From the NCBI GenBank assembly GCA_031213475.1, contig JARUPZ010000001.1, positions 21,234,933 to 21,298,932 on the forward strand: DNA of 64,000 bases, given 5' to 3'. Shown in pieces: positions 1-40,296 of this stretch; position 1 is the stretch's first letter; each line of letters opens with the position of its first letter. The stretch comes from Nereocystis luetkeana. Taxonomy: Eukaryota; Sar; Phaeophyceae; Laminariales; Laminariaceae. The notes beneath the pieces were generated by a model, which ran no database searches, was not told where the DNA came from, and saw only the letters and a program-made list of their open reading frames with translations. Both the position numbers and the translations under genes were made by a program.

Positions 1-2
1 TG

Positions 3-373
3 ATCGTTTTCGACTCTGATCCGACGGCCCACGTCAAGACGATACGGGCCCTTTTCGAACGCCTGCGCAAACACAACCTCAACTCTCCCCCTCGAAGGCT
101 CGCCTCGGCGCCACGGACGCTAATTTTCTGGGCCACTCCATTTCGCCCGCGGGTATACGCCCCAATGAGGGAAAAGTTTCGCCTTTGTTGAAAATGCCCA
201 TGCCCAAGAACCTCGAGCAGGTCCGAGCATTGATGGGCCGCGTGGGATATTATCGCAAATTCCTCCCCGACCTGTCTAAAAAGATCCGGCCTATCACTGC
301 CCTCCACCGGAAGGGGGTTAGGTACGTCTTTACGCCGGCCATGGAAGTTATCGTTCGCCAGATCATCGCCTAG
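3..373 (+). pseudogene. Gypsy A reverse transcriptase, C-terminal end
   Basis: The first bases read 'IVFDSDPTAHVKTIRALFERL', the stretch that normally follows the YxDD box in gypsy RTs, so the catalytic box should lie just left of the window. After a frame change near position 90 it reads 'FLGHSISPAGIRPNEGKV' and then 'LEQVRALMGRVGYYRKFLPD', the classic connection to the thumb. An in-frame TAG at 371-373 separates it from the RNase H, which continues in the same frame. Confidence 0.88.
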
Positions 374-2226
374 CTCGCTGCCCCACCAATTTTGGTCTTC
401 CCGGACTGGGACGCTGTAGCCGACGGCTCCCGCCCCTTTCGCGTGTACTGTGACGCCTGCATCGACTGGTTTGGTGCCGCGCTTGAACAAAAACAACTGG
501 ACGGCTCGGTACGGCCCATTGATTATATCAGCCGCGCTACGCTCGATTCCGAGAGAAACTGGACCCCGTTGGACCTCGAAGCGGGCAGCATTGTCTGGGC
601 TATCAAGCGACTCCGCGGCTACCTATGGGGGACAAAGTTTCGCATCTTTTTGGACCACAAGGCACTTGAGAACATCGGCAAAGTAGGGGATCACAACGCG
701 CGAGTTGAGTGGTGGCTCGAGTTCCTCACAGCGTTCGACTACACCCTCGAGTACCGTAAGGGCACCGCCAACGGCAACGCTGATTGTCTCTCCCGCTTGC
801 CAGACCCGGCCACCACGGAACACGACCGCAGTGGGTCCAGCAGCCTCACACCCGTAGAGGACGGGGGTATCTTCCTCTTCCAGGCCTGCGGGCTTCGCAC
901 TCGCTCTTCCCCGACCCCCGGTGTCGGTTTGGGTGGGCTGGTGCCCCGCATCGAACGTGCCGTCGTGGGTGGGCTGCCTTTCACCTCTTCGGTTTTTCGC
1001 GATTTTCGCACACACGGGCCACGTATGAGGATTGACGACCTCTCTGCTCCTTCGGGGAGATTCGTCGCTCGTGCCTCTGCTTCCGTCGCCACCGTCAATC
1101 GCCGTCCTGGCATGCGGGTTTTTTCACCTGCCGCCAACACCGCTTTCGCTTCGGTTTTCGTCGTACCCTCCGAGGGCGACCAGGGCTCTGCAGAAGCCCC
1201 CGCTGCAGCGACGACTGTCGCCCATCGCGCTCCTCCCCCGACGAGCACTTTACAGGGACAAGATTCCGCCGGGAGCACTGCTCCGTCCGCATCTGCCCCT
1301 CCAGACCTGGGCAATGCAAAAGCCCCCGTTGCAGAGACGATTGTCGCCCAGCACGCTCCTCCCCCGACGAGCACTTGACAGGGCGAAGATTCCGCCGTGA
1401 GCACTGCTCCGGCCGCGTCAGTCCCTTCAGGCCAGGGCAATGCAGAAGCCCTCGCTGCAGCGACAACTGTCGCCCAGCGCGCTCCTCCCCCGACGAGCAA
1501 TATTCAGGGAGAAGATTCCGCTGTGATCACTGATCCGGCCGCGTCTACTACATCGCCGCCTGGCACCCCGGCGCCCCCGAACGTTTTGTCGTCTTCCGGC
1601 ATCATCTTCACTCGGACGCGCCGACGAACAGCCGCCGCCGCTGGCTCCATGCCGCCTGCTGTTGATTATGGCTTCGGGCCCGGCGGGACCCCTAGACCAT
1701 CCGCCAGGCGTGCTATCACCCCGCCGCGAGCCCCACGACCGCGACCGACCGCGCCAGTCGTTCTGACCCCGGCTCCTGCCACTTCGTTGGTCCCGACGGT
1801 ACCCATCCCGTCAGACCGCGACCGCGCCGAGCCCGTGGGAACCACTCTTTTGCGGCTTCCGCTGCCAACTGACGAACCGCCCGTTCCCAAGAATGAGTCC
1901 GACGCTCTCGGCGCAGCTGCCGACTTTTAATTTGGTGATTCTGCAGCGCGCTATTCGCACACCGATTGGGCACGGGAACAACAGGCCGAGCCCGCGTGCA
2001 ACTCCGCCATGCGCTACATAGCCCTTGGCCGGCCGGAAATTTTGCCAGCCGACTTTTGGTCGTGTTCCCCTTCCCACCAGCGCCCGTTTTTTTCGGAGGT
2101 TCAGAAGCTGGCTCCCAAACGCCCTTTACACACTACCGACGCGGGTATCGTTCTACTCGTCCGGCAGCCGCCCCCCCCCCCCCTGCGTCAGGCACGCAAG
2201 GCCCGGTGGGTCGTGCGGCCTGTTGA
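374..2226 (+). pseudogene. Gypsy A RNase H domain and long linker
   Basis: The RNase H would degrade the RNA of the cDNA hybrid. It shows 'FRVYCDACIDWFGAAL' (first catalytic Asp), 'RNWTPLDLEAGSIVWAI' (Glu), 'FRIFLDHKAL' (Asp) and 'NGNADCLSRLP' (final Asp). The same frame then continues through a Pro/Ala/Ser/Thr-rich linker to about 2226, with in-frame stops at 1376-1378 and 1928-1930. Near its end comes 'RPFFSEVQKLAPKRPLHTTD', which has a counterpart in the second copy ('RPLLSEVLALAAKGQLHTTD' near 28.85 kb). A C-run at about 2169-2182 coincides with a frame change into the integrase. Confidence 0.87.
1190..1567 (+). repeat. Three 126-bp tandem units in the gypsy A linker
   Basis: Units begin at 1190, 1316 and 1442 ('gcagaagcccccgctgcagc', with small changes). 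The 126-bp period is 42 codons, so the repeat keeps the reading frame and each unit carries 'APPPTS'. The middle unit contains the TGA stop at 1376-1378 where its neighbour has TTA. Confidence 0.9.
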
Positions 2227-3107
2227 TTGAATGACGAGCCTATCCGCATTTATGTGCCGCTCCTCATGCGCCCTTGGGTCATGCAGGCTTGCCATTCCAC
2301 GGATTCCTGCTACCTAGGAACAGCGCGCACCCTACGTATACTCGAACGTTTCTACTGGTGGATCGGTATGAGCATCTGCACCCGGTGGTGGTTACGCCAC
2401 TGCTTGAAGTGCCAGGCACGGCAAACGTCGCGGCAGACGGTCCGGTGGCCATCATTACATTGCCCTTGCCAGAAGGGCCCGGCATCGCCGTCAGCATCGA
2501 CTATTTCGGCCCCCTCCCAGTGACGCCTCGAAGAAATAAGTACATCTTGCTTTTCACTGATCGTTTCAGCCGCCGAGCCGACATGTACGCCGTCACTGCG
2601 GCAGAGTTCACCGCTGAGGGCACGGCTAACATTGCCATCAACCGGTATATTCCTCTCTGGGGGTGCCCGCGCAGCATCCTCTCGGACAACGGCCTCCAAT
2701 TCTGCTCCAAGCTTTCACACGCCGTATATCAGCTTCTCGGGGTTCGAAAAATTGCCATCAGCTCCTACCACCCAAACGGCAACGGCGGGGTGGAACGTGT
2801 CAACCACACGATGGCCCATATGCTGGCAATGGTCGTCAACGATCTCCAGAACAACTGGGATGAACACCTCCCTCATGTCGAATTTGCGTACAACAATTCG
2901 GTCAGTGCCGCCACGGGATTGGCTCCCAACGAGGTACATATGGGTCGGCTGCCACGCCTCCCCCTCACGATTTCGGGCGTGCTGGCGTCGCCGGCCACCA
3001 AAGCTTGGCCCGCGACCACCTCCCCTATTGCGACTTGGCGATGGACCGCCAGCAGCGCGCGTATGATATCGTTCGCGAACACCACGCCTACACTGTTGCC
3101 CGTGTGA
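2227..3107 (+). pseudogene. Gypsy A integrase: zinc finger and DDE core
   Basis: The N-terminal part reads 'MRPWVMQACHSTDSCYLGTA' followed by 'WWLRHCLKCQARQ'. The CxxC pair is kept, but the second His of the HHCC finger is Tyr; the copy near 29.04 kb still has His. A frame change in about 2420-2480 leads to the core in the frame starting at 2274: 'SIDYFGPLPV' (first D), 'SILSDNGLQF' (second D) and 'NGNGGVERVNHTMA' (E), then 'HLPHVEFAYNNSVSAATGLA'. All three DDE residues are visible, but the frame breaks make the gene dead. The enzyme would insert element cDNA into chromosomes. Confidence 0.92.
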
Positions 3108-3832
3108 ACCGCCGCAGCTCCACCCTCGCCGACGCTCCGCGTCCGGTCCCCAGGTTTGACGTAGGCGGCTGGGCGTGGGTGTACAATACCGCGGCCACCA
3201 TCCGCCAGGGGGCAAAACCCGACACGGACGCCAAGGTCCTCAAGGCCAAACTCTCACTCAACTGGACAGGCCCCTACAAAGTTCTCGCAGTTGGCCCCTG
3301 CTCCGCAGCGGACACCCCGGACGGGTCTCCTCTTGGGGCCAAGGTCCTGTATTTGGATCTTCCCTCCGACATGCCCGGCGCGGATGCCCGTCGGCGCGTT
3401 TCAGTTCAACGCTGCAAGCCCTGTGCCAACCCCCACGACCGTGGCGACAGGCCGAAGTATTTGCCGGCGGGGTTCACGCAGTATGTGCTCGACAACTTCT
3501 CCAAGAAATCTCCCCCGTACCGCGTCACCCAGGACGACGTCTCGACACCTCATCACCGACTCGAAGTGGAAAAGATTACCGGACACTAATTGGTTCGAGG
3601 TCGAGGTGGCGTCATCGCAGTGACGTACAAAATGCACTGGACTGGACTCTCCCGTCCATCCTGGGAAGGGGAAATGGACCTTCAGCTTTCTCGCCAAGCA
3701 ATTTTGCGCTACTGGGCCGGCACCCCGAACCAGCATCGTCAAACCAACCGCCTGTACCGCCGAATAAGAATCGGCGGGGCACAACGGGAGCTCTCTCGTA
3801 ATAACGGCCAGCGGTTTCCGGCATCCGGCTAA
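3005..3832 (+). pseudogene. Gypsy A integrase C-terminus and chromodomain
   Basis: After another frame change the integrase C-terminal barrel continues: 'RQQRAYDIVREHHAYTVARV', 'FDVGGWAWVYNTAATIRQGA', 'LKAKLSLNWTGPYKVLAVGP' and 'SVQRCKPCANPHD'. A TAA at 3587-3589 interrupts the frame, which then gives a chromodomain-like 'VIAVTYKMHWTGLSRPSWEG' and 'QAILRYWAGTPNQHRQTNR'. Chromodomains in this position (chromoviruses) direct integration to particular chromatin. The second copy reads through the equivalent position without the stop. Confidence 0.85.
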
Positions 3833-3896
3833 TAGCTATGGCTGCGTCTCGCACGCCGACTGGCTCCGCCGATACTGCAACACCGTGCTTCCCAAC

Positions 3897-4096
3897 GGGG
3901 CCCATTTTTGTTACAAGCGCGACGACGGGCTGTGGTGGCTCGGGAAAATCAGCGCGACTACGCCCACGGATGGAGTATATTTAGATCGATTTTAGGACGA
4001 CCCGGGACCGATCAAGCTTCATCTTTCTCCTGCGCGCTACACTACTTTGACGAGAGCTGTACGTGGCTTTTGGTGTCTCCAAATTCACTTGGCTAG
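3897..4096 (+). pseudogene. Gypsy A C-terminal Tudor-like tail
   Basis: A frame not joined to the preceding one reads 'GAHFCYKRDDGLWWLGKIS', then 'VYLDRF', a TAG stop near 3994, and 'DDPGPIKLHLSPARYTT'. The second copy has the same module uninterrupted at 30615-30813. The pattern of a WW-GKI strand, a variable loop and an 'RFLDDPGP' strand looks like a Tudor/Agenet-type barrel (inference). I know no better family name. Confidence 0.55.
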
Positions 4097-4140
4097 CGCA
4101 TTTGCACGGGGGGTCCAGCGTAACGTAGACGAATCTCGAG

Positions 4141-6414
4141 GCGCCGCCGTGAATAGCTGATTTTCTCTTCTTGGCTGCGCTCGTTTTTTTTTTTTCTTGA
4201 CGTTTTCCTGGATTTTAAGCGGTGGTCTTCCTCGTTGTTGACGTCTTCCGACTTTTCGGGTCGATTTTTTCTTCTGGCAGGTATGTTCCTGGGTTGTTTG
4301 TTTGAGTGTTTTTCTTGGGCTTGGCTAGGGATGTTTTTCACGTATTCTGTCCTGCCTACCCCCCCCCGCTCAGTGTCGGGGCTGGTTTGGGTAATCGTGC
4401 CACTCACTGTGGCACAGGACACGTTTCCCGAGTAGTAGGCCGGGTTTTCGATGTCTCTTGATATCTTCCTTGATTTTTTACTTCTCGTTTTTTTTTTATG
4501 TTCCCTTTTCACTTTCCCTGCATCTTCCTCGCCCCCCCCGTCGCGGGTGACATGGCGATGGTTTTTCGTTGGCGATTTCTTCCTGCCCCTTGAGGCTAGG
4601 CTTCCTTTCAATTATTTTTACGTACTTTGCCGGCTTCGTTGCCTTGCCGGTCAGAGGTGTGGGAGTGGGTTTTGAGGAGCCGCATCTTCGACTAATGTTC
4701 TAGTTGTGGAATCGGGGTTTTCATGAATTTCCCATAATTCTGCATATACGGCTCATCAGAGTCGGCTAGTGTTATGATACTAATTTGTATGAGGTTGAAA
4801 GCCCGGTAATTACCTAGGTTCTGGCACTGGGATCGTATTTGTAGTACTTGGAAGGCGTATCTTAGGTGGAAAACCAGGGTTTTTCCAGAGAGGCACGAGC
4901 GTGGCCCCAGTCTCCGTCGTTCACGAAAGGAATAAGGTGGCTCTTCTATCTCTAAGCGAACAGCAACGTGAGTACCAACGAGTGCCGGCTTAATAGGCAG
5001 GCCTGTCCAGGGATACAAGGTGTCTCGCTCTCAGTGTTCTCAACAAAGGGCTATGGTTGGGATGAGGGAAATAACGCGCACACACACATATTGTCTAAAT
5101 TAGGGTGACCCTTGCGAGTGCAAGATATTCCGACCAGTCCAGACCCTCAAGACTTTAACGAAAATAGAGCAGCACTTCGAAAAACAATATTTAAAGGGGT
5201 TATCACAGAAAGCTACAGAAGAAACACATGTTGCATAACACCATGATGCTGCACTTTTTCCGGCCAAGCCAAAAAAATTGAAGTTTTCCTCGTGATAGCA
5301 TTACCAGTAGTCCGGCAGTACGTACAAATGTGCTCGGGTTCCGACGTCATGAAGTGGCCACAAAACAAGACTCTTCAACCCGCGCACGCAAAACAGGTGT
5401 TTTCAAGCAGCGGGGACCCTTCCTATGTCTCATGTGGCAAATCGTGTGGGGCAACCGTGGTTTGTCCCGACCGCATAATATTCCCACTTTAGACACGTCG
5501 AGTTGGGCATTGAACAGGTCCGGACGAATTGCCCCGTATAAAAAACACAATGTATGTGGTCCGCGAAATGACCGCCGATGTATTGCTTCAAAAATGTACG
5601 TTGATGTATCTGCTTGCTGCCGAGGATACCAGGTGCATTTATCGTTGTTTCGATTCCCTAGGGGCAAGATTTACGAGTATAGTTCCGTCCATTGAGGCCC
5701 CAGGAGCGAATAGAGAGGGTTGACACGCATATTCTCTTCGAGTACCTTCACCTCGTGTCCTCGGACTGTATTTCGCTCTTGGACATTCTGATATATTGAT
5801 CAGTTAGTGTCGCGGGCCTAGCATACGTAGTCAACCGGGTGGGCTCGACTTCCCACTTCAATATAGCGCAGAGCTAGAAATACGCGCCAAAACCGTCCAT
5901 TTATCACTAAGGACACATGGAGAGAGCATGTACGTAAAAGCGCCAATCCTCCAGCTATCTCAAACGATATCGCAACTATCTTTTGACTCCTTGTGAACTT
6001 GGCCGGGGTGGTGCGGACTGCAGGCTTCTACGAAAAATACTGTTCATTGATTGCTGACCCACTGTAGACGCATCCAAGGTGATGCCCTCGACACCCAAAC
6101 AAACTTGACGGTACTACGGTGGAGCCCTACCCATTGCATACGCTGCTCTTCGCACTCTTGATGGCTTTGTGCCCAGGTCGAAAGCGATGACCAAGGCAAT
6201 ATGTAGGACAACCCGAGAGGAGGAGGAAAATAAGAAGAAGAAGGAGAAAAAAAAGAAGGGGAAGAAGAAGTGGCAATCCACATAATGAGGAGGGACCGTA
6301 AACGACGCGGCCCCTACCGATACGAAAATGCATGTCGTCGTAACTCCTGAAAGGGTCCTGAACCGTAACAGAACGTCGAGACGACCACCCCCAGACCTAT
6401 TGTGTTTTCGGTGG
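4141..6414. other. T-rich stretch and gene-free sequence
   Basis: The first 500 bases are strongly T-rich on the plus strand and may be remains of the element A 3' LTR, since they follow the coding tail directly. No second LTR is in the window to prove it. The rest (about 4690-6414) holds no convincing gene. A purine block of GAA/GGA repeats lies at about 6217-6272. Confidence 0.4.
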
Positions 6415-14986: not shown

Positions 14987-15889
14987 AGGACCATCATCTT
15001 CGAGCAATTGCTCATCAGGCACGTTCTTGCTGTCTGTGTTTGGTTTGTTTTTAGAAACGTGATACTCGTACGAGTACGAGTAGTCTAGTCTTCGCTGTGG
15101 ATTTGATCTTGTATTTTTTTCTTTGTTTTGCAGCGTTTCGAGACTTGTCATAATTTGGTGATGGCCATTTGATGCGTGGCGTGTGTGACTGCAACTTTTG
15201 GAACTTTGAGCTTTCATTTACGAATATACGTATCAAGTTCCGGACATATGTACGATTCACGTAGTATACGATACACGTAACGTGTTGGATCACAAAAACG
15301 CAGTTCGTATACGAGTAAAAACTACTGAGACGAGCGCGGCTGGAGGATAGAAAACTTGACTGGTATATATAATGTTTGCGATGGGCACAAACTAGGGAGG
15401 GTAGTATGAGAGTTCAGTTTGAGCACATCGGAAATTCACACGGAATACCGGGTATCTTGATTGATAGTTTGCATGACCCTGGTTGCTCCCCCCACAGACA
15501 ATATTTGAGGTGTACACAGGCCATGCGGGTGATATTCTCTTCCAACTATATATCACCAAGCTATTAATGTTTCGTCCGATAGGATGAAGAGTCACCAGAT
15601 TCCCTCATTCGAGTACCTTTGCTTTTCCCCCCTTTCGCTGTCGATGATTTGCCGAATCTCTGCTTGGAGACTGCACTGCGTTGATTGCATCAGGTGGACG
15701 GTTGACGAGAGGACCAAATCACGACCGGGCATGGTGAACGGAGAAAATGAGGTGGATGCTCGACGGTCGTGATGTGTGGTTGTAGTGGTACTATTATATT
15801 GGGTAACGGTTGGTATTGATAGTGTTTTTGTTGTGTCTTTTTTATTATTTTGCTCGGTACTGCTATGTAAAAAGCGCAGGTAGTGGTTC
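14987..15889 (+). other. Non-coding part of copia internal region, copy 1
   Basis: About 0.9 kb between ORF1 and the RT remnant, without a convincing frame. It includes a palindromic 'actcgtacgagtacgagta' near 15064-15082. The same sequence recurs at 18758-19660 and inverted at 52750-53622. Confidence 0.6.
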
Positions 15890-17281: not shown

Positions 17282-17658
17282 TGTGGGATTTGCTCGTACC
17301 AAAGTCTGATTTTCTGATTGTACTGAATTGTGTGATTCTTGTAAATGTAATATATCTACGGAGATTGCGGCGGGATTAGTGTTTCCCCGAGGAGTTGCAT
17401 AAAATTGTGTTTGACCTGCTTTCAGGGGTCTTATAGAGTCTAGGGGAACGTGGCCCCCTTGCTCTCAGTCCATCAGTACACTATTAATAGTCCACGAGTA
17501 CGATAAAGGATAAGATATATATTTCTCTTCTCTCCTTCCACCGCCTTATGGCGCGAATGCTCCCGTTCGACCGCTCTCCGTGAGCAAGGCTCTCCGCCCC
17601 AGGGCAAGCCTCACCCGCGCATCACCCAAGCGCACCCGGTGCTCGAATTGATCCCTTT
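17282..17658 (+). repeat. Copia LTR 2 (central, shared)
   Basis: Same type as LTR 1. It serves as the 3' LTR of unit 1 and the 5' LTR of unit 2, the layout produced by LTR-LTR recombination between neighbouring copies. Confidence 0.85.
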
Positions 17659-18757: not shown

Positions 18758-19660
18758 AGGACCATCATCTTCGAGCAATTGCTCATCAGGCACGTTCTTG
18801 CTGTCTGTGTTTGGTTTGTTTTTAGAAACGTGATACTCGTACGAGTACGAGTAGTCTAGTCTTCGCTGTGGATTTGATCTTGTATTTTTTTCTTTGTTTT
18901 GCAGCGTTTCGAGACTTGTCATAATTTGGTGATGGCCATTTGATGCGTGGCGTGTGTGACTGCAACTTTTGGAACTTTGAGCTTTCATTTACGAATATAC
19001 GTATCAAGTTCCGGACATATGTACGATTCACGTAGTATACGATACACGTAACGTGTTGGATCACAAAAACGCAGTTCGTATACGAGTAAAAACTACTGAG
19101 ACGAGCGCGGCTGGAGGATAGAAAACTTGACTGGTATATATAATGTTTGCGATGGGCACAAACTAGGGAGGGTAGTATGAGAGTTCAGTTTGAGCACATC
19201 GGAAATTCACACGGAATACCGGGTATCTTGATTGATAGTTTGCATGACCCTGGTTGCTCCCCCCACAGACAATATTTGAGGTGTACACAGGCCATGCGGG
19301 TGATATTCTCTTCCAACTATATATCACCAAGCTATTAATGTTTCGTCCGATAGGATGAAGAGTCACCAGATTCCCTCATTCGAGTACCTTTGCTTTTCCC
19401 CCCTTTCGCTGTCGATGATTTGCCGAATCTCTGCTTGGAGACTGCACTGCGTTGATTGCATCAGGTGGACGGTTGACGAGAGGACCAAATCACGACCGGG
19501 CATGGTGAACGGAGAAAATGAGGTGGATGCTCGACGGTCGTGATGTGTGGTTGTAGTGGTACTATTATATTGGGTAACGGTTGGTATTGATAGTGTTTTT
19601 GTTGTGTCTTTTTTATTATTTTGCTCGGTACTGCTATGTAAAAAGCGCAGGTAGTGGTTC
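18758..19660 (+). other. Non-coding part of copia internal region, copy 2
   Basis: Identical by eye to 14987-15889; no gene. Confidence 0.6.
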
Positions 19661-20690: not shown

Positions 20691-21018
20691 AAGTGTCTTG
20701 AGTAACTGTTGTGTCACTGCAATCCATTTACGGAGATTGTGATGATAACTATGTTTCCCCGAGGGGTTGCATAAAATTGTGTTTGACCTGCTTTCAGGGG
20801 TCTTATAGAGTCTAGGGGAACGTGGCCCCCTTGCTCTCAGTCCACCAGTACACTATTAATAGTACGCTAAAATAATTGATATTTATCTTCTCTCCTTCCA
20901 CCGCCTTATGGCGCGAATGCTCCCGATCGACCGCTCTCCGTGAGCAAGGCTCTCCGCCCCAGGGCAAGCCTCACCCGCGCATCCCCCAAGCGCACCCGGT
21001 GCTCGAATTGATCCCTTA
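20690..21018 (+). repeat. Variant copia LTR (LTR 4)
   Basis: From 'gcataaaattgtgtttgacc' to 'gaattgatccctta' it matches LTR 1, but its first ~70 bases and its TATA-proximal part ('acgctaaaataattgatatt') differ. The left limit is approximate. Confidence 0.7.
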
Positions 21019-24579: not shown

Positions 24580-24659
24580 TTAAGGGAGAAAATACCTCAC
24601 AACATCGTACTGGGTATGATTTGGGCGAACTTCCCGTAGACCCCAAATGAGCGGAACCT

Positions 24660-24819
24660 CGTTACTGATGCTGTTTCGTGTTTTGGCGGAAACAATGTGT
24701 ACGGGTGCGCTTATCTCTGCTATATCTTCTACATTCTGACCGGCAGCCAGATATTGGTCGATCACAGCGTCGGCCTTTTTGACGAGGATAGGGTTGATGC
24801 GGTAAGGGCGGGAATACAC
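24660..24819 (-). pseudogene. Gypsy RT, extreme N-terminus
   Basis: 'PYRINPILVKKADAVIDQYL' is the segment that opens gypsy RT domains (typically 'PyRlnP...l...i..ll..G'). After 'AAGQ' the similarity fades, and no 'SPY.SP' or later RT motif is visible. The break at about 24.6 kb removes the rest. Confidence 0.7.
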
Positions 24820-25039
24820 GGGGGCGATATCCGGGGGGATGGAAATTTTGAACGGAATAGGGGAGCACGAGGCGATGTCAGTTTTGGACGTGGAGAAAAC
24901 GTCGGGGAACTCGCAAATAACTTCTCCGAGCGCCGTGATGACCGAAGGAGGCCAACCAGAGCCGCGGAGGTCAAAGGAGACGTCACGAAAGTGCAGCGGG
25001 AGCTGGTCCCAGACGCGGAGAAAGCTTGTTTGTTGATCA

Positions 25040-25640
25040 ACAGTCAGACGTCCCAGGAGTTTGTCTCAAGGAGTCCTGTGGGTGTCAGCCGGAGGTGTAT
25101 CGTCGTCGTGTACAGAAATGTTGTCGTGCAGGGCGTGGACGTCGATAACAGCGGAGGCTGGGGGTGACGTCATAAGGAGAACTTGTATGAGGGGAGAGAC
25201 CGGTGAATACCGAGAGCGGGATAATCGGGTAGCCATTGGCGACGAAGATTCCTGTTTCGGAGAAGAGACCGTCGCGGGGAAGCATGTCGACGAGGTAATG
25301 GCCAGCGGGCGCCGGAAGGCCGGAGGACCGCTCCAAATTAGCCGGAACGAAAGACGGCGTAGCCGAAACGGGGACTGGGTGAACGCCAGCGAGCTCGAGG
25401 TGGATGATGTCTTGCGAAGGACGGCTGTCGCGAACGAAAGTGGAGAGACCATCCTTGTATGGGGTGGCTAGGGGGAGCTCACGAAAGAGAGGTCGCGAAT
25501 GGAGGCGTGGCAGGGTGGTCTACGGGCGTTGTTCGAACCGCACCCAGCAGTCGCGTCCCAGTAGAACGGGATTTTGCATAGTCCCATGTTGCACGATGCA
25601 CACCCATTCGGCGAGTTCGGCGGAAGGAGTGCTGTTGCGT
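25040..25640 (-). pseudogene. Retropepsin C-terminal part and protease-RT linker
   Basis: In one frame 'AEWVCIVQHGTMQNPVLLGR' continues 'DCWVRFEQR', the usual end of a gypsy protease ('PvLLGrD.w.rf'). Further along, 'GLSTFVRDSRPSQDIIHLEL', 'APAGHYLVDMLPRDG' and 'GIFVANGYPIIPLSV' resemble the linker between protease and RT in gypsy elements. The frame differs from that of the catalytic DTG, so at least one break lies near 25650. Premature stops follow. Confidence 0.7.
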
Positions 25641-25657
25641 TAGAACTGGATGCTGAG

Positions 25658-26160
25658 TCAGACGGAAATCGAAGTTAAGAGCGGAACGGATTCACCAAAC
25701 CCACCCCAGGAACGAGGGGAAGCGTGTTGTTCACACGCGTCCGACGCGGCGACGCTGCGCTTCATACAGGCCCAAGCTTCAGCGGAGATGAAGGTCTGAG
25801 GAGAACCGGTATCCAGGAGAGCTACTAGGCCGTAGCGGTTGGATGAGCAGGGCCCACTGTGTATTTTGATCCTGGTCGTGAAGGAGGCGTCGTCAACGAT
25901 AACTATACCGCTCGAGTGGGCCGATCCGTGTTCGGCAATGAGGGAGGGGAGTGCAGGAGACAAAGTAGCTCCGGACGAAATGGCAGAGATCAATGCGTGC
26001 GGAGGAGTGGCTTCAGGAAGGAAAGGCGGCCGTAGGTGGTCCAGAGTGGAGTGCGGTGTAGGAGCTGGGACGGTTGCGCTCCTCTCGTGAACGCCAGTTT
26101 CGGAGTGTAAGACGCGAGAGGCGCGAAGGGGGAGCGGGAGGGAAGAAGGGGAGGCTAGCT
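25658..26160 (-). pseudogene. Retropepsin catalytic region with upstream linker
   Basis: The open frame carries on from the NADAR domain through a Ser/Pro-rich linker into 'IKIHSGPCSSNRYGLVALLD' then 'TGSPQTFISAEAW'. The DTG catalytic triplet lies at 25805-25813. This is an aspartic protease of retroviral type, active as a dimer, that would cut the polyprotein. Because NADAR's end ('GDILMKLRHQL') and DTG share one uninterrupted frame, the fusion is directly visible. The frame stops at 25658. Confidence 0.85.
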
Positions 26161-26600
26161 GGTGGCGGAGCTTCATGAGGATGTCGCCCAACAGGTTGAG
26201 TCCCGGCCAGAATGGAGGTTGGAAGGCTCGCGTATCGTCACACCTAAAGCCGATTCCCCAGATGAGGTCGTAAGGACTTGCTTCGGTGAGTAACTTGTCG
26301 CCGGTGTCTACGAGTTGTTCTAGGAAGGGGGGAGCCGAAACCTTGGCGAGGTTGCCCCTGAAAAACGATGTCGTACCGATTCTGTACCCAACGTTTTTGG
26401 TTAAAAGTGGAAACGGAGCGGCCGAGGCGATTTTGTTGTGCGGGATTCGGAGAGGGCATGATCTTCCGGCGAATTGCTGTATCGCCGAAAAGCTTGGCCT
26501 GTTCCGACATCATGTACTGTTCCGCACAGTTGTAGCGCTCGTTGTCTACGGTGAACGTCGAAGGGTACCACTGCGAAAAGACCGAAGAATGATCTAAAAA
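26161..26600 (-). pseudogene. NADAR (YbiA / DUF1768) domain within a gypsy polyprotein
   Basis: Motifs match the NADAR family in order: 'FSQWYPSTFTVDNERYNCAE' then 'QYMMSEQAKLFGD', 'NRLGRSVSTFNQKRW', and after a frame break 'LVDTGDKLLTEASPYDLIWG' then 'IGF', ending 'WPGLNLLGDILMKLRH'. The conserved Glu of the AEQYMM box and the SPYD-WGIG box are both kept. Family members are N-glycosidases acting on riboflavin-pathway intermediates (YbiA/COG3236) or removing ADP-ribose from guanine in nucleic acid. A one-base frame difference coincides with a run of five T on the sense strand (about 26359-26363). The domain is about 145 residues, near the usual family length. Upstream is a Pro/Ser-rich linker; downstream is the protease. 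Confidence 0.9.
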
Positions 26601-26606
26601 TATTGG

Positions 26607-27900
26607 AATTTGGGAGGGGCTCAGGGTCGAGGGGAGTGGAGAGTGGGACGTTGTGTGGTCGTGAGTGAGACGGCTTCGCTCCCCGTTAACGTGTGGTGTA
26701 AGGTCGGTTGTGACGAGGCCCCGGGAAGATGTACGTGACGGCGAGACGCTCGTGACGGAGCACCCTGGGAGTCCCTGTTAACAGCATTCAACGTATGCGG
26801 ACGAGGGAAAAACTCGGAAGAACATGCAGTACCTTTAGCAGGCCGTGACCGTGGTGTGGGTGTCGGTATGGGTGGCGCCTGGCATAATCTTGGTGACTTG
26901 ATCAAGTCGTTCGCGGGTGAGTCCGCGGGAAACCGTCCGTTGGTCCCAGGGAGAGTGATGTGGTCAGCGCGGGCAGCTACGAGTCCCGGAGATCCTGCAG
27001 AACCAACGGAGTTCGAAGTATGTGCTGCCCGGGATCTACGGACGCCGGTTGACGTGCGCCGAAAACATCGTTCGTCAGAGGAGGTGGATGAGTTGGGAGT
27101 CGATGGGCCTGGGGGAGGAGCAGAGCCTGAGAGGGAATGGATACCGCTGTTGACAGTGGTTGTCGTGTCGCCCACAAGATTGGCAAAAGCCGTAGACATT
27201 TCGGCAATGTTAGGCAAGGCGCGGCGTCGCACATCGACTGGGGACACCGAGGGGAGCGTTGAGGGAGTGCTCGGTGTGCCCACCTCCTCCTGCCCACACC
27301 TCAAACCAACCGCTTGAACAAGGGAGCCAACCCTAGATCGAGGGGTTGATATTGAAGATAGGTTAGACGGGGGGATAAAAGAGGGGGAGAGGTCGTGAGA
27401 GAAAGTAGAGCCGGCGGCTCCTGAACAATACGGTGCACGAGGTTCCAGAGAGGTACCCGGAGCGGTCGCGAGGGTGCCGCTGGTGACGTCGCGAGCGGTT
27501 ATTCACCATCGGCTGGTCAGTTAGTACGGAAGGTGCCCGGTTGCCGGGAGGTTTGATCACCTCCGTGTTGTGAAGGGCCGAGGCGCATGTTGGCTGGGGT
27601 AGTGGGGGTCTGGGTTGTGGGACCGGTTACGGTAAGGGCAGATGAGGGAGGTCCTTGAGGGGCGGGAGGAGTACGCTGGGGTGCCGAATTATCCACAGAG
27701 TGTTGGTTGTTGGGAAAGTAGTTCGTCCACTGAGAGCCTGCAGCACAGCCAGAGTTGCCGTGGGAGCGCTCGTTCTTAGAATGGTAGTTGTGCCGGCGGT
27801 TGTTATTGGAATTGCCCGCAGAGTTGTGTCCCCTCGGGTTCGGCTTACCCAGAACACCGGCGGGGTAGATAAAGGATTCTTGGCTCGGTTTTACGTAGTG
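26607..27900 (-). pseudogene. Gag-like low-complexity region upstream of NADAR
   Basis: From the right, one frame reads 'GVLGKPNPRGHNSAGNSNNN', then Asn/Gln/Pro-rich sequence to a stop near 27515. A second frame (27304-26621) is Ser/Pro/Thr/Arg-rich. This fits the tail of a gag protein behind the zinc knuckle; no CCHC motif remains, so the true gag core was probably lost at the 27.9-kb junction (inference). Confidence 0.55.
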
Positions 27901-28020
27901 ACCCCGTCCGCCGTGGTCGAGGGGTTATCCGCTAAAAGGGCAAAAGGCGATCGCTCGAGCGAAACCAGTGGGGAGGGGACTCCAAGGGGAAGTGTTATAA
28001 GGATCGCTCTTGGAGGGCCT

Positions 28021-28190: not shown

Positions 28191-28985
28191 GCCTCCGTCG
28201 GTCACCTATCTATCGTCGACTCCATCATCGAGTCGTCTACCAGCTCCGAGAACGCCGCCGTGGCTGCTGGCGCTCCTGCTGATGTGGCTTTCAGGCCATC
28301 CTTCGTCTCTCCATCACTCACCTTCGGCGTCTCAGCTTCGGCCGCTCCTCGTCCCTCGTCGGGCCTAATTCATTCTCGGACCCGTCTCCATTGTACCGCT
28401 GCTTCTGGGACTCCCCTCACTCCGACGAACTACGGATTTGGCCGTCGAACGTCAACTACGGCTGTCTCAAGACCGTCCCCACCTCACCGACGTCCGCCCA
28501 TCGTCGCTCCAAAACCACTCCCTCGGCGACCTGACGAAACTCGCTCGCGCCGCTCAAGACTCGCCTTCGCCAGCGACTCCAGCGCCACGGTCCCCCGCCC
28601 CAGGGCCCTCTCCCTCGCTCTCCCTCGCTCTCCCCTACTCAACATCCCCCGCTACCTGAACCCGTTGTCCAGTCTGCTGACGAGTAACACCTTAGATCCT
28701 TCGTGGAGCGCTACACCTACACCTACACAAATTGGGCGCGCGAATAGCGCACCGAACCTCGTTGCTCCGCTACCATACGCTACCTTCCCTTGGGCTCACC
28801 TTCACCGCCACCGAGCGACCCCAGCATTACATTCCTCCGACACGTCGCCCACTTCTCTCGGAGGTTCTCGCCCTCGCCGCGAAAGGTCAGCTGCATACAA
28901 CCGACGACGACGCAGCCCTTCTCGCTCACCGAACGCGCACGGCTACCCTGGGCCCAGCTCGCGCGATCACGTCGCAGGCCCTCAC
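28179..28985 (+). pseudogene. Gypsy B linker between RNase H and integrase
   Basis: Pro/Ser/Arg/Thr-rich sequence in changing frames, with 'RPLLSEVLALAAKGQLHTTD' near 28.85 kb, which is conserved with copy A. No other domain is recognised. Confidence 0.65.
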
Positions 28986-29994
28986 GTCGCCACCTCGCAT
29001 CTATGTTCCGATGTTGATGCGAACGTGGGTCCTACACACATGCCACTTCACCACCGCTTGTCACCTGGGTGTTTCTCGGACATTAAGCATGCTTATGAGC
29101 TGCTACTGGAGACCGGCATGGACATCTCAACCCGCTGGTGGCTCCGTCACTGACTCAAGTGCCAGGCGCGAAAGTATTTGCGTCAAAACATTCGTTGGCC
29201 CACTCGCTGACTGCCGCTACCAAACGGCCCCGGTATTCTCGTCAGCGTCGACTATCTCGGGCCCCTACCCAACATGCCTCGGGGAAACGCCTGTATCCTA
29301 CTTTTGACCGACCGGTTCAGCCACCGCGCACGACATGTACGCCACGACTGAGGCCGAGTTCACCGCATCCGGCGCAGGCGATATCTTCGTCGACCGTTAC
29401 ATCCCTCTCTGGGGATACCCCGTTACCCTTCCTTCCGACAACAGTCCACGATTCTGCACCAAACTCACCCGCACCCTCTTTGAGCGCCTCCGCATCATCA
29501 AAATCTTCACGAGATCTTACTACTCCTGCACCAACGGCGGAGTCGAACGCTTTAACCACACCATGGCCCTGATGCTCGCCATGGTCGGCAAAGAACTACA
29601 AAACGATTGGGACCTGCATCTTCCTCACGTCGAAAGCGCCTACAACAACTCCGTCAGCGCCGCGGCCGGGCTGGCCCGCAATAAAGCGCACATTGGCCGG
29701 CTACCTCGCCTCCCCCTCACCGTTTTCGACTCTCCCAACATCGGCGGACCTCAAAGCCTCAACCGGGACCAGCTCGCTTACATTGACCTCGCTACTACTC
29801 ATCAGCAACGGGCCTACCGCGCCGTCTGGAATCTCCACGCGGTCTATGTCTCACGCCTCGACCGCCGCAACGCCCCCATCATGGACGCCCTCCGCCTTTC
29901 CCTTCGGTTCTCTGTCGGCGGTTGGGCATGGATCTACAACACCACAGCCACTATTCGCCAGGGCGCCAAGAAGGCACCGACGCCACCGTTTTCA
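28986..29994 (+). pseudogene. Gypsy B integrase: zinc finger and DDE core
   Basis: 'IYVPMLMRTWVLHTCHFTTA' then 'CHLGVSRTLSML' keeps both His of the HHCC finger; the Cys part is frame-shifted near 29150. The core shows 'VSVDYLGPLP' (D), 'VTLPSDNSPRF' (D) and 'CTNGGVERFNHTMALML' (E), then 'HLPHVESAYNNSVSAAAGLA'. From 29335 the frame is open to 29997, including 'FSVGGWAWIYNTTATIRQGA'. Confidence 0.9.
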
Positions 29995-30479
29995 TAACCA
30001 AACTCTCCTTCAACTGGATTGGCCCGTGCAAGATTCTTGCCGTAAGCCCAGAACCAGCCCCAGCCGTTCCGGATGGACGGCCCCTTCATGACAAACTCCT
30101 GTACTTCGATCTTCCCTCGGACATGCCTGGGCGGGACACCAAGCACCGCGTCTCCGTTCTCTGCTGCAAGCCCTGCCGGAACCCCGATAACATCAACGAT
30201 CTCCCCAAACACCTACCGGCCGACCTCACTAAGCACGTGCTCAGCTCCTTCTCCACTAAGTCCCCGCCCTTCCACGTCACCTTCGACGACATCTCCCCAC
30301 CGCCCGAACACCAACTCGTTCTTGGCCGGGGAGGCGTCCTCGCCGTAATGTACGAAACACACTGGGCCGGACTCTTTAGTCCTTCTTGGGATCACGAACG
30401 AGACCTGCAGCTTCACCGACCCCACACCCTTTGCTATTGGTCGTGCACCCCTTCCCAGCATCGCCAGGCCAACCGGTAA
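29922..30479 (+). pseudogene. Gypsy B integrase C-terminus and chromodomain
   Basis: It overlaps the previous frame and continues in another: 'TKLSFNWIGPCKILAVSPEP', 'LYFDLPSDMPGRDTKHRVSV', then a chromodomain-like 'VLAVMYETHWAGLFSPSWDH' and 'HTLCYWSCTPSQHRQANR'. Unlike copy A there is no stop before the chromodomain. Confidence 0.85.
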
Positions 30480-30614
30480 TACCGCCAGATGCGCATCGTG
30501 GCCGCTCATCGCGAACCATCGCGGTCCCGGGGCGATATCTTCCTCGCTCCCGGATACAGCCTCGTACCGTGCACTCTCTGACTTCGCCGCCTCAGCTTTT
30601 CACCTCTACTCGCC

Positions 30615-30813
30615 GGGGCGCACTTCTGGCACAAGGCCCGCGATGGACTTAGGTGGTGGGGCAAAGTTGCCCCCCGCGCCTCGACTGACACCTCCTCTAC
30701 TGACTCCTACATCGTTCGCTTCCTAGACGACCCGGGCCCGATCAAGATTACTCTACTTCCGTCTCTTTACACAACTTCACGTAGCGCGACCCACGGATCC
30801 GGGTGCCTTTAGT
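30615..30813 (+). pseudogene. Gypsy B Tudor-like tail
   Basis: 'GAHFWHKARDGLRWWGKVAP', a variable Ser/Thr loop, 'SYIVRFLDDPGPIKITLLPS' and 'LYTTSR' follow the chromodomain, uninterrupted. Equivalent to 3897-4096. Confidence 0.55.
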
Positions 30814-30849
30814 GTCATCAGGCCGGAGGACTGGCACGCGGTGTACTGA

Positions 30850-37881: not shown

Positions 37882-38157
37882 CGCCGAGACGGGTGGAATG
37901 TTTCACAAAGCTAATCGCCGACACTCTGGCGACGCGGGACATGATTCGCCCGCACACGTACATATGGTGGTCAGCAGGCTGGGCGTCCAACCCTCGGAAA
38001 CGAAGATCGAAGCGGCAGCACGGTCGAAGAGGTGAGGGCGCTCTTAGGGATGGGCAGCTACCTCAGGAAGTTCGTGAAGGGATACAGCTCGATGGTGGCG
38101 CCAATCTCGAATCTTCTCCGGGATTAATGGTTCGCGTCGAAGAGGGCCAGGAAGCTC
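37882..38157 (+). pseudogene. Gypsy C RT thumb fragment
   Basis: In shifting frames: 'VVSRLGVQPSETKIEAAARS', then 'EVRALLGMGSYLRKFVKGYS' and 'SMVAPISNLLRD' with a stop before 'WFASKRARK'. These are the primer grip to thumb residues of gypsy RT. Palm motifs are absent. Confidence 0.8.
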
Positions 38158-40296
38158 TTGGTGCCATGGTGGGAGGACCCGGATAAGGCTCTGGCGGCGC
38201 TGATAGAGGTGCTCACGTCACCACCTATCCTGGCGCTGCCGAATTTGGAAGCACCGTTCCATCTGCACACGGACGCCAGTGAACTCGGTGCGGGAGCCGC
38301 GCTCACGCAAGTCGTCAGGGGCACCGAGCGAGCGATCGGGTTCGCGAGCCACCGGTGGTCGAAGGCGGACGCCAAAAGGTCGGCAACGGAAAGAGAGGTC
38401 ATGGCGGTGTTATGGGCGATACAACAGCACCGACCGTACTTGTGGGGGAGGAAGTTCTTCCTCATTACGGACTGCTCCGCGCTCCTCTGGCTGTTCAAGA
38501 GCCAGACCCTCTCCGCGAAGCTTCATCGGTGGGCGCTCAGGCTGATGGAATATGACATGATTTTACTGTGGAGGCCGGAAGCACAGCACCGCCTCCCGGA
38601 CGCTCTATCGCGGTTGCCAATCGCAGACGCGCCAGGGGCGGATGTCGACGACTCGTGTCCGGATGACTCGTCCACCCGGACCACGTACAGGGGTCCCCAG
38701 GGACCCGTGCTCGACGGGATCCTGCTCAGCGACCTGGGAGTGGAGGAGGTGGACACACCCACAGGAAAGGACGCCGGGGTAATGGCCAGCGTGACATTCA
38801 CGCCGGGCGGAGCCGTAGGGGGGGCCGGCAAGACGAGGGACCCTGCGAACGCAGAGCAGCCAGAAACGATCCGTGCGGAGGTTACGGCGGTAGTAGAGGA
38901 GGTCCCGGGTGAGTGGGAGGCTCCGCTAGAGGGGTTGTACGCTTTGCTCAGAGGTGACCACACACACCCGCAGGTGACGCCGGCCATAACCCGTTCAAAG
39001 GCGGGGACCAGGGCACTACGGGTGACGGAGCAGCGGGCACCAGCGACTGCGGCCGGGCCGGCCGCGTCCGAGGCGCCGGGCTGGCGAAAGTCGCCGACGT
39101 CCCCGCTTGCCCCACCTCGGGGGGCAACGCCGTCGCCTAGCCCACCTGGGGGAACAACGCCCTTGCCGACGGTTGGGCCGACGCGACGGCCGGGGAAACA
39201 GGCGGCTAGTACAGAGCACCCAGGGCCGCTCGCTCCCATGATAAGTCGCGTAGCGGAGACCCTCCGCAACCCGCCCAGGTTAGCCCAGCACCAGAGGCAG
39301 GACGCCCGGCTAGGCCCGGTCGGGGGTAGGTTGCGAGGAGACGGTGACAGGCAGACACCGGAAGGAACGTTCAATTACATACTCGACGACAACGACCTAC
39401 TCTGGAATGCACCCCCCGGTGGGGAGCCGAAGTTGGCCATTTCGAGAGCGCTGGTACGAGGGGTGCTGGCATTGGTTCACAGCACCTACGGCCACCCGGG
39501 GGTGGCACGGACCCTTCTGATGGCCAGAGCCAAGTACTGGTGGCAGTCAATAGCTCGGGATGTCAGGGAATATGTGCTATTCTGTGGGTGTAGACGGAGG
39601 CAACGGGCCTGGAGCCAACGAGTAGCGATGATGCCAGCGCGGCTGCTCTGGCCGTGGGACGTGCTCGAGATGGACCTGCAGGACATGAAGAAGGTCTACA
39701 GCGCCGGAAACAGGTACTTGTTGGTAGTGGTGGATAGAGCTAGCAGGTTCCTCTTCGCGTACCCGTTAGGGTCCAAGGATTCGGTAGGCGTAGCGAAGAA
39801 GCGCTTGGAGCTCATGCATACGCTCAGGGTGCCGATGTCGGTCAGGAGCGACGCAGGGGGGGAGTTCACGGCCAAGGTAGTCGCTCACCTGTGCCAGTGG
39901 CTGAACGTTCCGCTCGGTTATGGACCCGCCGACCACCCACGCAGTCAAGGGACCGTGGAAAGGATGGGGGGGGTGGATCCACGAGGTGATAGCGGAGCTG
40001 TGCAAGAGCTGGCCAGGGCGCTGGGACGAATACGTCGAGGCAGCATGTTGGATACAACGCACGACGCCCGACCCGCGCTTACCCTCGGGAGGAACGCCGT
40101 TTCGAATCCTGTTCGGCCGCGACGCGCGTACGAACCTCGACGCTCTCACCCCTGTACTCGACGACGACTCCTTCCGCTCGGGACTCGACAAATTCGTGGC
40201 AGAGAGGCAGCAGACGTTCCGGGAGCTGAGGGGGATACTCGAGAGGCGGCAGGAGGAAAAGAAGCGCCGAACGGCGCGGCACAATGCGGCAATTAA
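38158..40296 (+). pseudogene. Gypsy C RNase H and integrase
   Basis: The RNase H has 'FHLHTDASELGAGAALTQ' (D39), 'SATEREVMAVLWAI' (E79), 'FLITDCSALLWLF' (D105) and 'HRLPDALSRLP' (D148). A ~280-residue Pro/Thr/Gly-rich linker follows. The integrase finger is 'LALVHSTYGHPGVARTLLMA' then 'YVLFCGCRRRQRAW'; the Cys pair is spaced CX1C instead of the usual CX2C. The core shows 'DVLEMDLQDMKKV' (D, about residue 504), 'SVRSDAGGEF' (D, about 564) and 'SQGTVERMG' (E, about 600). The frame is lost at a G7 run at 39966-39972, and the remaining codons to 40296 are off frame. The true path continues in the frame of 39920-40342. Confidence 0.93.

Follow-up and report, generated by a model that had tools for sequence, protein, structure and literature searches.

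NADAR as a domain of Pol in a Ty3/Gypsy retrotransposon lineage of the kelp Nereocystis luetkeana

In a 64,000-nucleotide stretch of the Nereocystis luetkeana genome (assembly GCA_031213475.1, contig JARUPZ010000001.1, positions 21,234,933 to 21,298,932; hereafter the window), the minus strand from 27924 to 24700 carries, in order, a gag tail, a UGA stop codon, a linker, a NADAR domain, a DTG protease and the start of a reverse transcriptase (RT). This copy is a dead, decayed fragment of a lineage of Ty3/Gypsy long terminal repeat (LTR) retrotransposons, cut off within gag and within RT and interrupted in its NADAR frame. Its features are as follows, with L-numbers denoting loci elsewhere in the genome.

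27517..27924, minus strand: C-terminal tail of gag, ending in ..RQPGTFRTN (tblastn with the end of the L020 gag, 56% identity)
26621..27502, minus strand: Pro/Ser/Thr-rich N-terminal stretch of pol, 5' of NADAR, weakly conserved and with a broken frame
26355..26591, minus strand: N-terminal half of NADAR (FSQWYP, NCAEQYMM, LGR), in the open reading frame (ORF) 26244-26777 (PF08719, 72.9 bits, E 4.8e-20, profile positions 9-96)
26156..26359, minus strand: C-terminal half of NADAR (EASPYDLIWGIG, NLLGDILMKLRH), in the ORF 25658-26509 (PF08719, 56.6 bits, E 4.8e-15, profile positions 95-162)
25511..25915, minus strand: retropepsin (DTG) region (63% identity to the L021 protease piece)
24700..24999, minus strand: N-terminal part of RT, where the similarity stops (68% identity to residues 1-100 of the L021 RT piece)

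The two PF08719 matches, to be read against a Pfam cut-off of 35.1 bits for this family, lie in overlapping minus-strand frames and cover nearly the whole of NADAR, with a frame change between them; chance or a misreading of the domain was rejected on these significant scores. The order of domains given in a preliminary description of this DNA is confirmed by the PF08719 matches together with similarity to L021 and L020, as is its observation that the C-terminal half of NADAR shares one frame with the DTG motif. It had also proposed a profile check for both domains, which holds for NADAR but not for the protease: a Pfam scan of the window copy calls neither the protease nor the RT start, and both are assigned because they are similar to the intact copy L021. 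The RT start region also gives a DNA match at 24740-25027. Upstream of NADAR, the segment 26702-27322 is 31% identical to the L021 pol N-terminus (E 1e-4), and a Pfam scan of the 26621..27502 stretch finds no domain above the cut-off. The gag stop is a UGA at 27517-27519, followed by C. Four loci, L037, L059, L060 and L062, have DNA that is 82-87% identical to window positions 24742-26931, so the arrangement is not due to chance, and the window copy belongs with these four, in one subfamily; its NADAR N-terminal half is 82% identical to that of L037 over 26355-26624. The L021 LTR finds no match in the window DNA.

A PF08719 search of the 465 Mb genome, in which 150 of 778 first-look candidates were scored, returned matches that were all above the cut-off, many of them within open frames of about 2000-2428 aa. 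We find 134 of these 150 in a Ty3/Gypsy element context, with the remaining 16 outside this count. For 123, the coordinates put one of the listed protease matches on the strand of NADAR, 117-353 bases downstream of it (the pairing used all 150 NADAR rows and, for the protease, all 150 rows from a first search plus the first 98 of 151 from a second one), and for 11 of the other 27 the element context was found from the locus sequences. Among 48 NADAR loci examined, 47 have protease similarity nearby (with L006 partly inverted), and in the other, L008, RT lies directly 3' of NADAR. Conversely, 53 of the 150 protease matches of the first search have no scored NADAR alongside; six of these were examined, and all six have NADAR upstream, with an intact domain at one locus and a broken one at the other five. 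Insertion of a lone host NADAR gene was rejected on the 134 of 150 matches in elements and on these six protease loci. The claim that a Ty3/Gypsy element gained NADAR is well supported by the same two counts, and so is the view that NADAR is a regular part of this family. The outcomes named beforehand as speaking against that claim were the lack of a significant profile match and family members without the domain; instead, the profile match is significant and all six protease loci carry NADAR or its remains.

The copies fall into at least five similarity groups, subfamilies A-E, named after L021, L003, L026, L037 and L042. Outside its own subfamily, L021 shares 39-53% identity in NADAR and 57-83% in RT, the RT values spanning short stretches in 2-kb loci. 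Identical NADAR scores occur on small contigs (G000:C10:1635042, C987, C1041, C1184, C1795), which suggests duplicated or uncollapsed assembly, and copy counts may be inflated.

The intact copies display the complete architecture. In L021, a Pol frame of 2428 residues contains NADAR at 373-520 (PF08719, E 1.8e-47), DTG at about 652, LLGRD at 735 and the YLDD of RT at 1159, followed by RNase H, an integrase zinc finger and the integrase core. The domain order is equal in L026, which is from a different subfamily, and both have the protease-RT-RNase H-integrase order of Ty3/Gypsy Pol. Pfam calls NADAR, RVT_1, RT_RNaseH and Integrase_H2C2 over the cut-off in both, with rve under its curated cut-off and no protease match in the L021 and L026 pieces; the protease of intact copies is recognised by its DTG and LLGRD motifs and by conservation. 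A Pfam scan of element pieces likewise gave no gag match, and the L020 gag has a CCHC zinc knuckle (CLNCNGTDHSMKTC). L021 spans about 14.4 kb in total, with LTRs of about 495 bp each that differ by one mismatch in 497 aligned columns (99.8% identical), end in TG..CA and are flanked by a 4-bp target-site repeat, ATAT, as judged by eye from the printed ends. The LTRs of L024 are 98.8% identical over 492 bases and those of L023 100% identical over the 365 bases available; these three are young insertions. For L026, no LTRs were found within 3-kb flanks. A tRNA primer-binding site usually starts with TGG, and the shared sequence after the 5' LTR is without this start.

All 19 subfamily A loci that have the gag-pol junction (L009-L025, L027, L028), as well as the window copy, end gag at an in-frame UGA, and the next base is C in 16 of the 19, as it is in the window. 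Similarity to pol starts directly after the UGA in the gag frame, which is kept from there up to NADAR in 9/19 loci. The simplest reading would be a junction of the readthrough type, as predicted from sequence, which many copies are unable to use as they stand.

The ADP-ribose contacts of 8bau, a Phytophthora NADAR with ADP-ribose, are E43, K50, R79, W89, R93, E125, D130 and W133 (PMC11543638). We mapped these by alignment, the chain index minus two giving the published numbering, and all eight letters agree. Counted as residues irrespective of an open frame, all eight are kept in 45 of 54 loci, a set to which the window copy does not belong; of the other loci, seven differ at a single contact, an eighth has a stop at one of the positions and the ninth differs at two. 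K50, D130 and W133 are kept in all 54, while the equivalent of E125, the last-strand residue that is Glu in the YbiA family as opposed to Asp or His, is Glu in 51 and Lys in three. In the window copy, the K50-equivalent is Q, and the other seven contacts are present, spread over two frames. An AlphaFold model of the L021 NADAR (predicted local distance difference test score, pLDDT, 93.2) best matches 8bau in the PDB (oomycete, E 9.6e-11), then E. coli YbiA 2b3w (E 7.8e-8), and up to E 0.001 the PDB gave no further match. By profile, modelled fold and glutamate, the element domain is assigned to the YbiA subfamily of the NADAR superfamily (PF08719), whose members would be expected to hydrolyse ADP-ribose linked to guanine, or riboflavin intermediates.

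To gauge selection, the ratio of nonsynonymous to synonymous substitution (dN/dS) was pooled over copies by the Nei-Gojobori method, with 95% intervals from a bootstrap over codons; shared ancestry among the copies and the decay of some of them pull the ratios towards 1. In a strict subfamily A set (copies below 85% identity or 90% coverage, and those whose piece contains a stop, excluded), NADAR has a dN/dS of 0.38 (0.17-0.98, n=21), alongside RT with 0.40 (0.22-0.76), RNase H with 0.45 (0.26-0.83), integrase with 0.52 (0.32-0.83) and the protease with 0.59 (0.28-1.30). The ratio is 0.84 (0.52-1.49) in the Pol N-terminus and 1.05 (0.41-4.55) in the linker 3' of NADAR. NADAR is constrained about as RT is, and the adjoining linkers seem less so, with overlapping intervals. 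The most constrained part is the Pol C-terminus after the integrase (residues 2100-2428 of L021), with 0.25 (0.16-0.41), in which no Pfam match, chromodomain included, was found at the threshold used. A looser set (gapped rows and those less than 85% covered excluded, stop codons skipped, identity floors of 90% for A, 80% for B, 85% for C and 75% for D) gives NADAR ratios of 0.49 (0.25-0.90, n=22) in A, 0.52 (0.38-0.71, n=20) in B, 0.47 (0.26-0.86, n=5) in C and 0.31 (0.20-0.48, n=3) in D, with all four upper bounds below 1. Further copies with the same domain order and with purifying selection on NADAR, which the preliminary description had proposed to look for, were found, the ratio being 0.31-0.52 in four subfamilies. 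NADAR is a regular, selected domain of Pol in this lineage, its contacts are kept in most copies examined, and some insertions are young.

Two further pieces of the lineage lie in the window.

28717..30848, plus strand: integrase with C-terminal domain, from a Gypsy element belonging to this lineage, inverted beside the NADAR copy (tblastn, integrase 53%, C-terminus 62%)
1..4157, plus strand: 3' part of a further element of the lineage, with the end of RT, RNase H, integrase and C-terminus (protein and DNA similarity)

The first is 68.6% identical to L021 in DNA over 28717-30677, and its Integrase H2C2 Pfam match is under the cut-off; since this plus-strand fragment adjoins the minus-strand NADAR copy, the two form a rearranged pair of fragments. 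To the left of the window, a NADAR match (G000:C1:21233117-21233566, 1.4 kb outside) and a protease match (21233813-21234271) are found. Elsewhere in the window, two pairs of direct repeats that are 89-100% identical (15000-15299 with 18771-19070, and 17340-17657 with 20712-21017), about 3.4-3.8 kb apart, are a local duplication. A distant RNase H-like match (31%) at 38026-38649 on the plus strand suggests another, different retroelement.

NADAR-bearing Gypsy elements are not new as a kind, and the present lineage is a further case in another genome. Dinatale et al. (2025) describe a Gypsy lineage of Ectocarpus, Gypsy-12_Ec32, with NADAR at the Pol N-terminus; it is the one of four Gypsy lineages there to carry the domain, a C-terminal chromodomain is named in it, and the role of its NADAR is called unclear (PMC12477816). 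The Ectocarpus assembly comprises 200.2 Mb (PMC12477816), as against 465 Mb here, and we infer that the kelp and Ectocarpus elements are the same lineage. A selection test, a count of contact residues and a gag-UGA-pol junction for such elements were not met in the literature searched, as far as its accessible text goes. The Tx1 LINEs (long interspersed nuclear elements) of the Pacific oyster are retrotransposons with NADAR too, but they are non-LTR elements with a NADAR-like domain in ORF1, whereas here NADAR is in Pol (PMC12477816). The nearest conceptual parallel comes from orchids, in which Gypsy elements carry an m6A demethylase, AlkB, likewise a captured enzyme able to erase an RNA mark; there, AlkB is an additional ORF for which demethylation was shown in vitro, whereas here a predicted enzyme lies inside Pol (PMC9289625). 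Nidoviruses and other RNA viruses likewise hold NADAR within a replicase polyprotein, and the structure matches as well, but these carriers use an RNA-dependent RNA polymerase, unlike Gypsy (PMC9503650). The DarT1-NADAR and YarT-YbiA toxin-antitoxin pairs share the superfamily, and the second shares the YbiA subfamily (PMC11543638, PMC11125620); unlike in these pairs, no ADP-ribosyltransferase was found in the element by Pfam in the L021 and L026 pieces. Several kinds of NADAR are described as stripping guanine of its ADP-ribose in DNA (PMC11543638, PMC11125620), and every NADAR in a tested panel as doing this in RNA (PMC11833690), while the roles of eukaryotic NADARs are said to remain unclear (PMC11125620).

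When 5.8 billion proteins were searched with the L021-type Gypsy NADAR, 49 proteins were found, many of them short NADAR proteins, several JGI-labelled ones ribA/ribD-fused and one from a snail. P0003 and P0005 run on into the post-NADAR linker of the L021 type and probably represent such elements in further datasets. Restricted to longer proteins, the search returned only P0001 (1236 aa), which has NADAR and then an RT-RNase H-like region. This region, used as a query, found 10 metagenomic proteins, five with NADAR (P0001, P0051, P0053, P0058, P0059) and five without it, four of them short (685-775 aa) and one, P0057, long (1166 aa). P0051 also has a weak OTU-protease match near the N-terminus. 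The region is taken to be an RT on several grounds. P0059 has a Pfam RNase H match above the cut-off, and the kelp genome contains matches to the region at 26-37% identity. Against Gypsy RT, the profile of this second family aligns FLDD with YLDD, weakly and with a probability of only 8.5. In Foldseek, its best match is Ty3 RT (E 1.1e-4), with RNase H and the RT of cauliflower mosaic virus coming next; the model used there is poor except at its RNase H end (mean pLDDT 41.9). A PDB profile search with the family gave no RT.

In a tree of 57 NADARs, the five second-family NADARs group apart from the rest (99/99), and the Gypsy NADARs fall among the relatives found with L021. Because those relatives were gathered with one Gypsy NADAR, the root is a midpoint root and two second-family rows have an odd letter make-up, this tree does not place the second family within all NADARs. 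The simplest reading of the sequences would be two separate captures of NADAR, one by Gypsy and one by the second family, whose different RT makes repeated capture likely and harder to put down to chance. A search of IMG/VR for relatives of P0055 or of the L021 RT confirmed none, and among the titles listed in the literature searches there was none on a NADAR-RT-RNase H protein family.

What the domain does for the element is a matter of more tentative interpretation. The reading that we favour, at somewhat less than an even chance, is that NADAR carried in Pol removes guanine ADP-ribose from the RNA or cDNA of the element. The preliminary description had suggested that the enzyme could shield element RNA or cDNA against host ADP-ribosylation, or that it could alter nucleotide pools. 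Readthrough of the gag UGA would yield, at low level, a Pol with the order Pro/Ser-rich linker, NADAR, protease, RT, RNase H and integrase, and this Pol would be packed with its NADAR into virus-like particles alongside RT. In the particle, NADAR would act as an ADP-ribosylhydrolase on guanines of the element RNA or of single-stranded cDNA, and with ADP-ribose cleared, a host ADP-ribosylation mark could not block reverse transcription. Several observations weigh against this. At the junction, 10 of the 19 subfamily A loci shift frame between the UGA and NADAR, three (L016, L022, L027) have a second stop immediately after the UGA, and in both L009 and L025 a stop sits at one shared position, the NADAR start; the extra stops and frame shifts may reflect decay or another route to Pol. 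The host is not known to have an ADP-ribosyltransferase that acts on guanine of nucleic acids: in its genome, searches for DarT and for PF01129 gave no match and PARP gave one exon-sized match (E 1.1e-5), no control having given a signal in the PF01129 and PARP searches. That single PARP match may be read as a hint, the only one, of a host enzyme that places the guanine mark. YbiA is reported to be a weaker RNA hydrolase than the E. coli C7 NADAR (PMC11833690), and riboflavin intermediates are the substrates for which NADARs are generally known (PMC11543638). Finally, the dN/dS values were obtained by Nei-Gojobori counting on copies that are related, and one interval almost touches 1. A Macro domain search of the host genome gave two exon-sized matches. 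Several other NADAR matches start at profile position 8, within frames of 2054-2055 aa, which looks as though the stop of L009 and L025 recurs in them, and a sub-group with a cut NADAR may have spread.

Another substrate is conceivable. NADAR may clear free ADP-ribose derivatives or reactive intermediates of the riboflavin pathway, or shift NAD-related signals, and so aid the element indirectly, which we regard as unlikely but worth keeping in view. NADAR/YbiA proteins are N-glycosidases on riboflavin intermediates (PMC11543638), viral NADARs have been posited to perhaps prefer soluble ADP-ribose derivatives (PMC9503650), and the YbiA-family glutamate is kept in 51/54 loci; yet a bulk metabolic enzyme would be oddly placed beside protease and RT in Pol, and action on macromolecules is favoured for eukaryotic RNA viruses with NADAR in the polymerase polyprotein (PMC9503650). 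The weakly constrained flanks of NADAR (0.84 and 1.05), as expected for separable parts, would also fit release of NADAR from Pol by the protease of the element, to act at other sites in the cell, such as on chromosomal DNA or proteins of the host. We consider this rather improbable, as loose linkers fit a tethered domain too and the intervals are wide. The stronger divergence of NADAR than of RT between subfamilies would be in keeping with a non-enzymatic structural or RNA-binding part of Pol, but the eight contacts are intact in most loci despite about half of the domain differing between subfamilies, and we hold such a role to be distinctly improbable. Least probable by far is that NADAR was captured once and hitch-hikes without function: other Ectocarpus Gypsy lineages do without it (PMC12477816) and several copies here have a broken NADAR, but the upper dN/dS bounds are below 1 in four subfamilies, NADAR is found in every member examined and its contacts are mostly kept.

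Returning to the removal of guanine ADP-ribose from element RNA or cDNA, a broader and more speculative extension, which we think unlikely as it stands, is that Gypsy elements, the metagenomic NADAR-RT-RNase H family and the oyster Tx1 LINEs captured NADAR independently, as a counter-defence against a so far undescribed guanine ADP-ribosylation of retroelement RNA or cDNA in many non-vertebrate eukaryotes. The constraint on NADAR across four subfamilies points to some conflict in which ADP-ribose marks of RNA or cDNA are at stake, or else to an unforeseen use of the domain, and this retrotransposon lineage provides a concrete system in which the function of eukaryotic NADARs can be tested.

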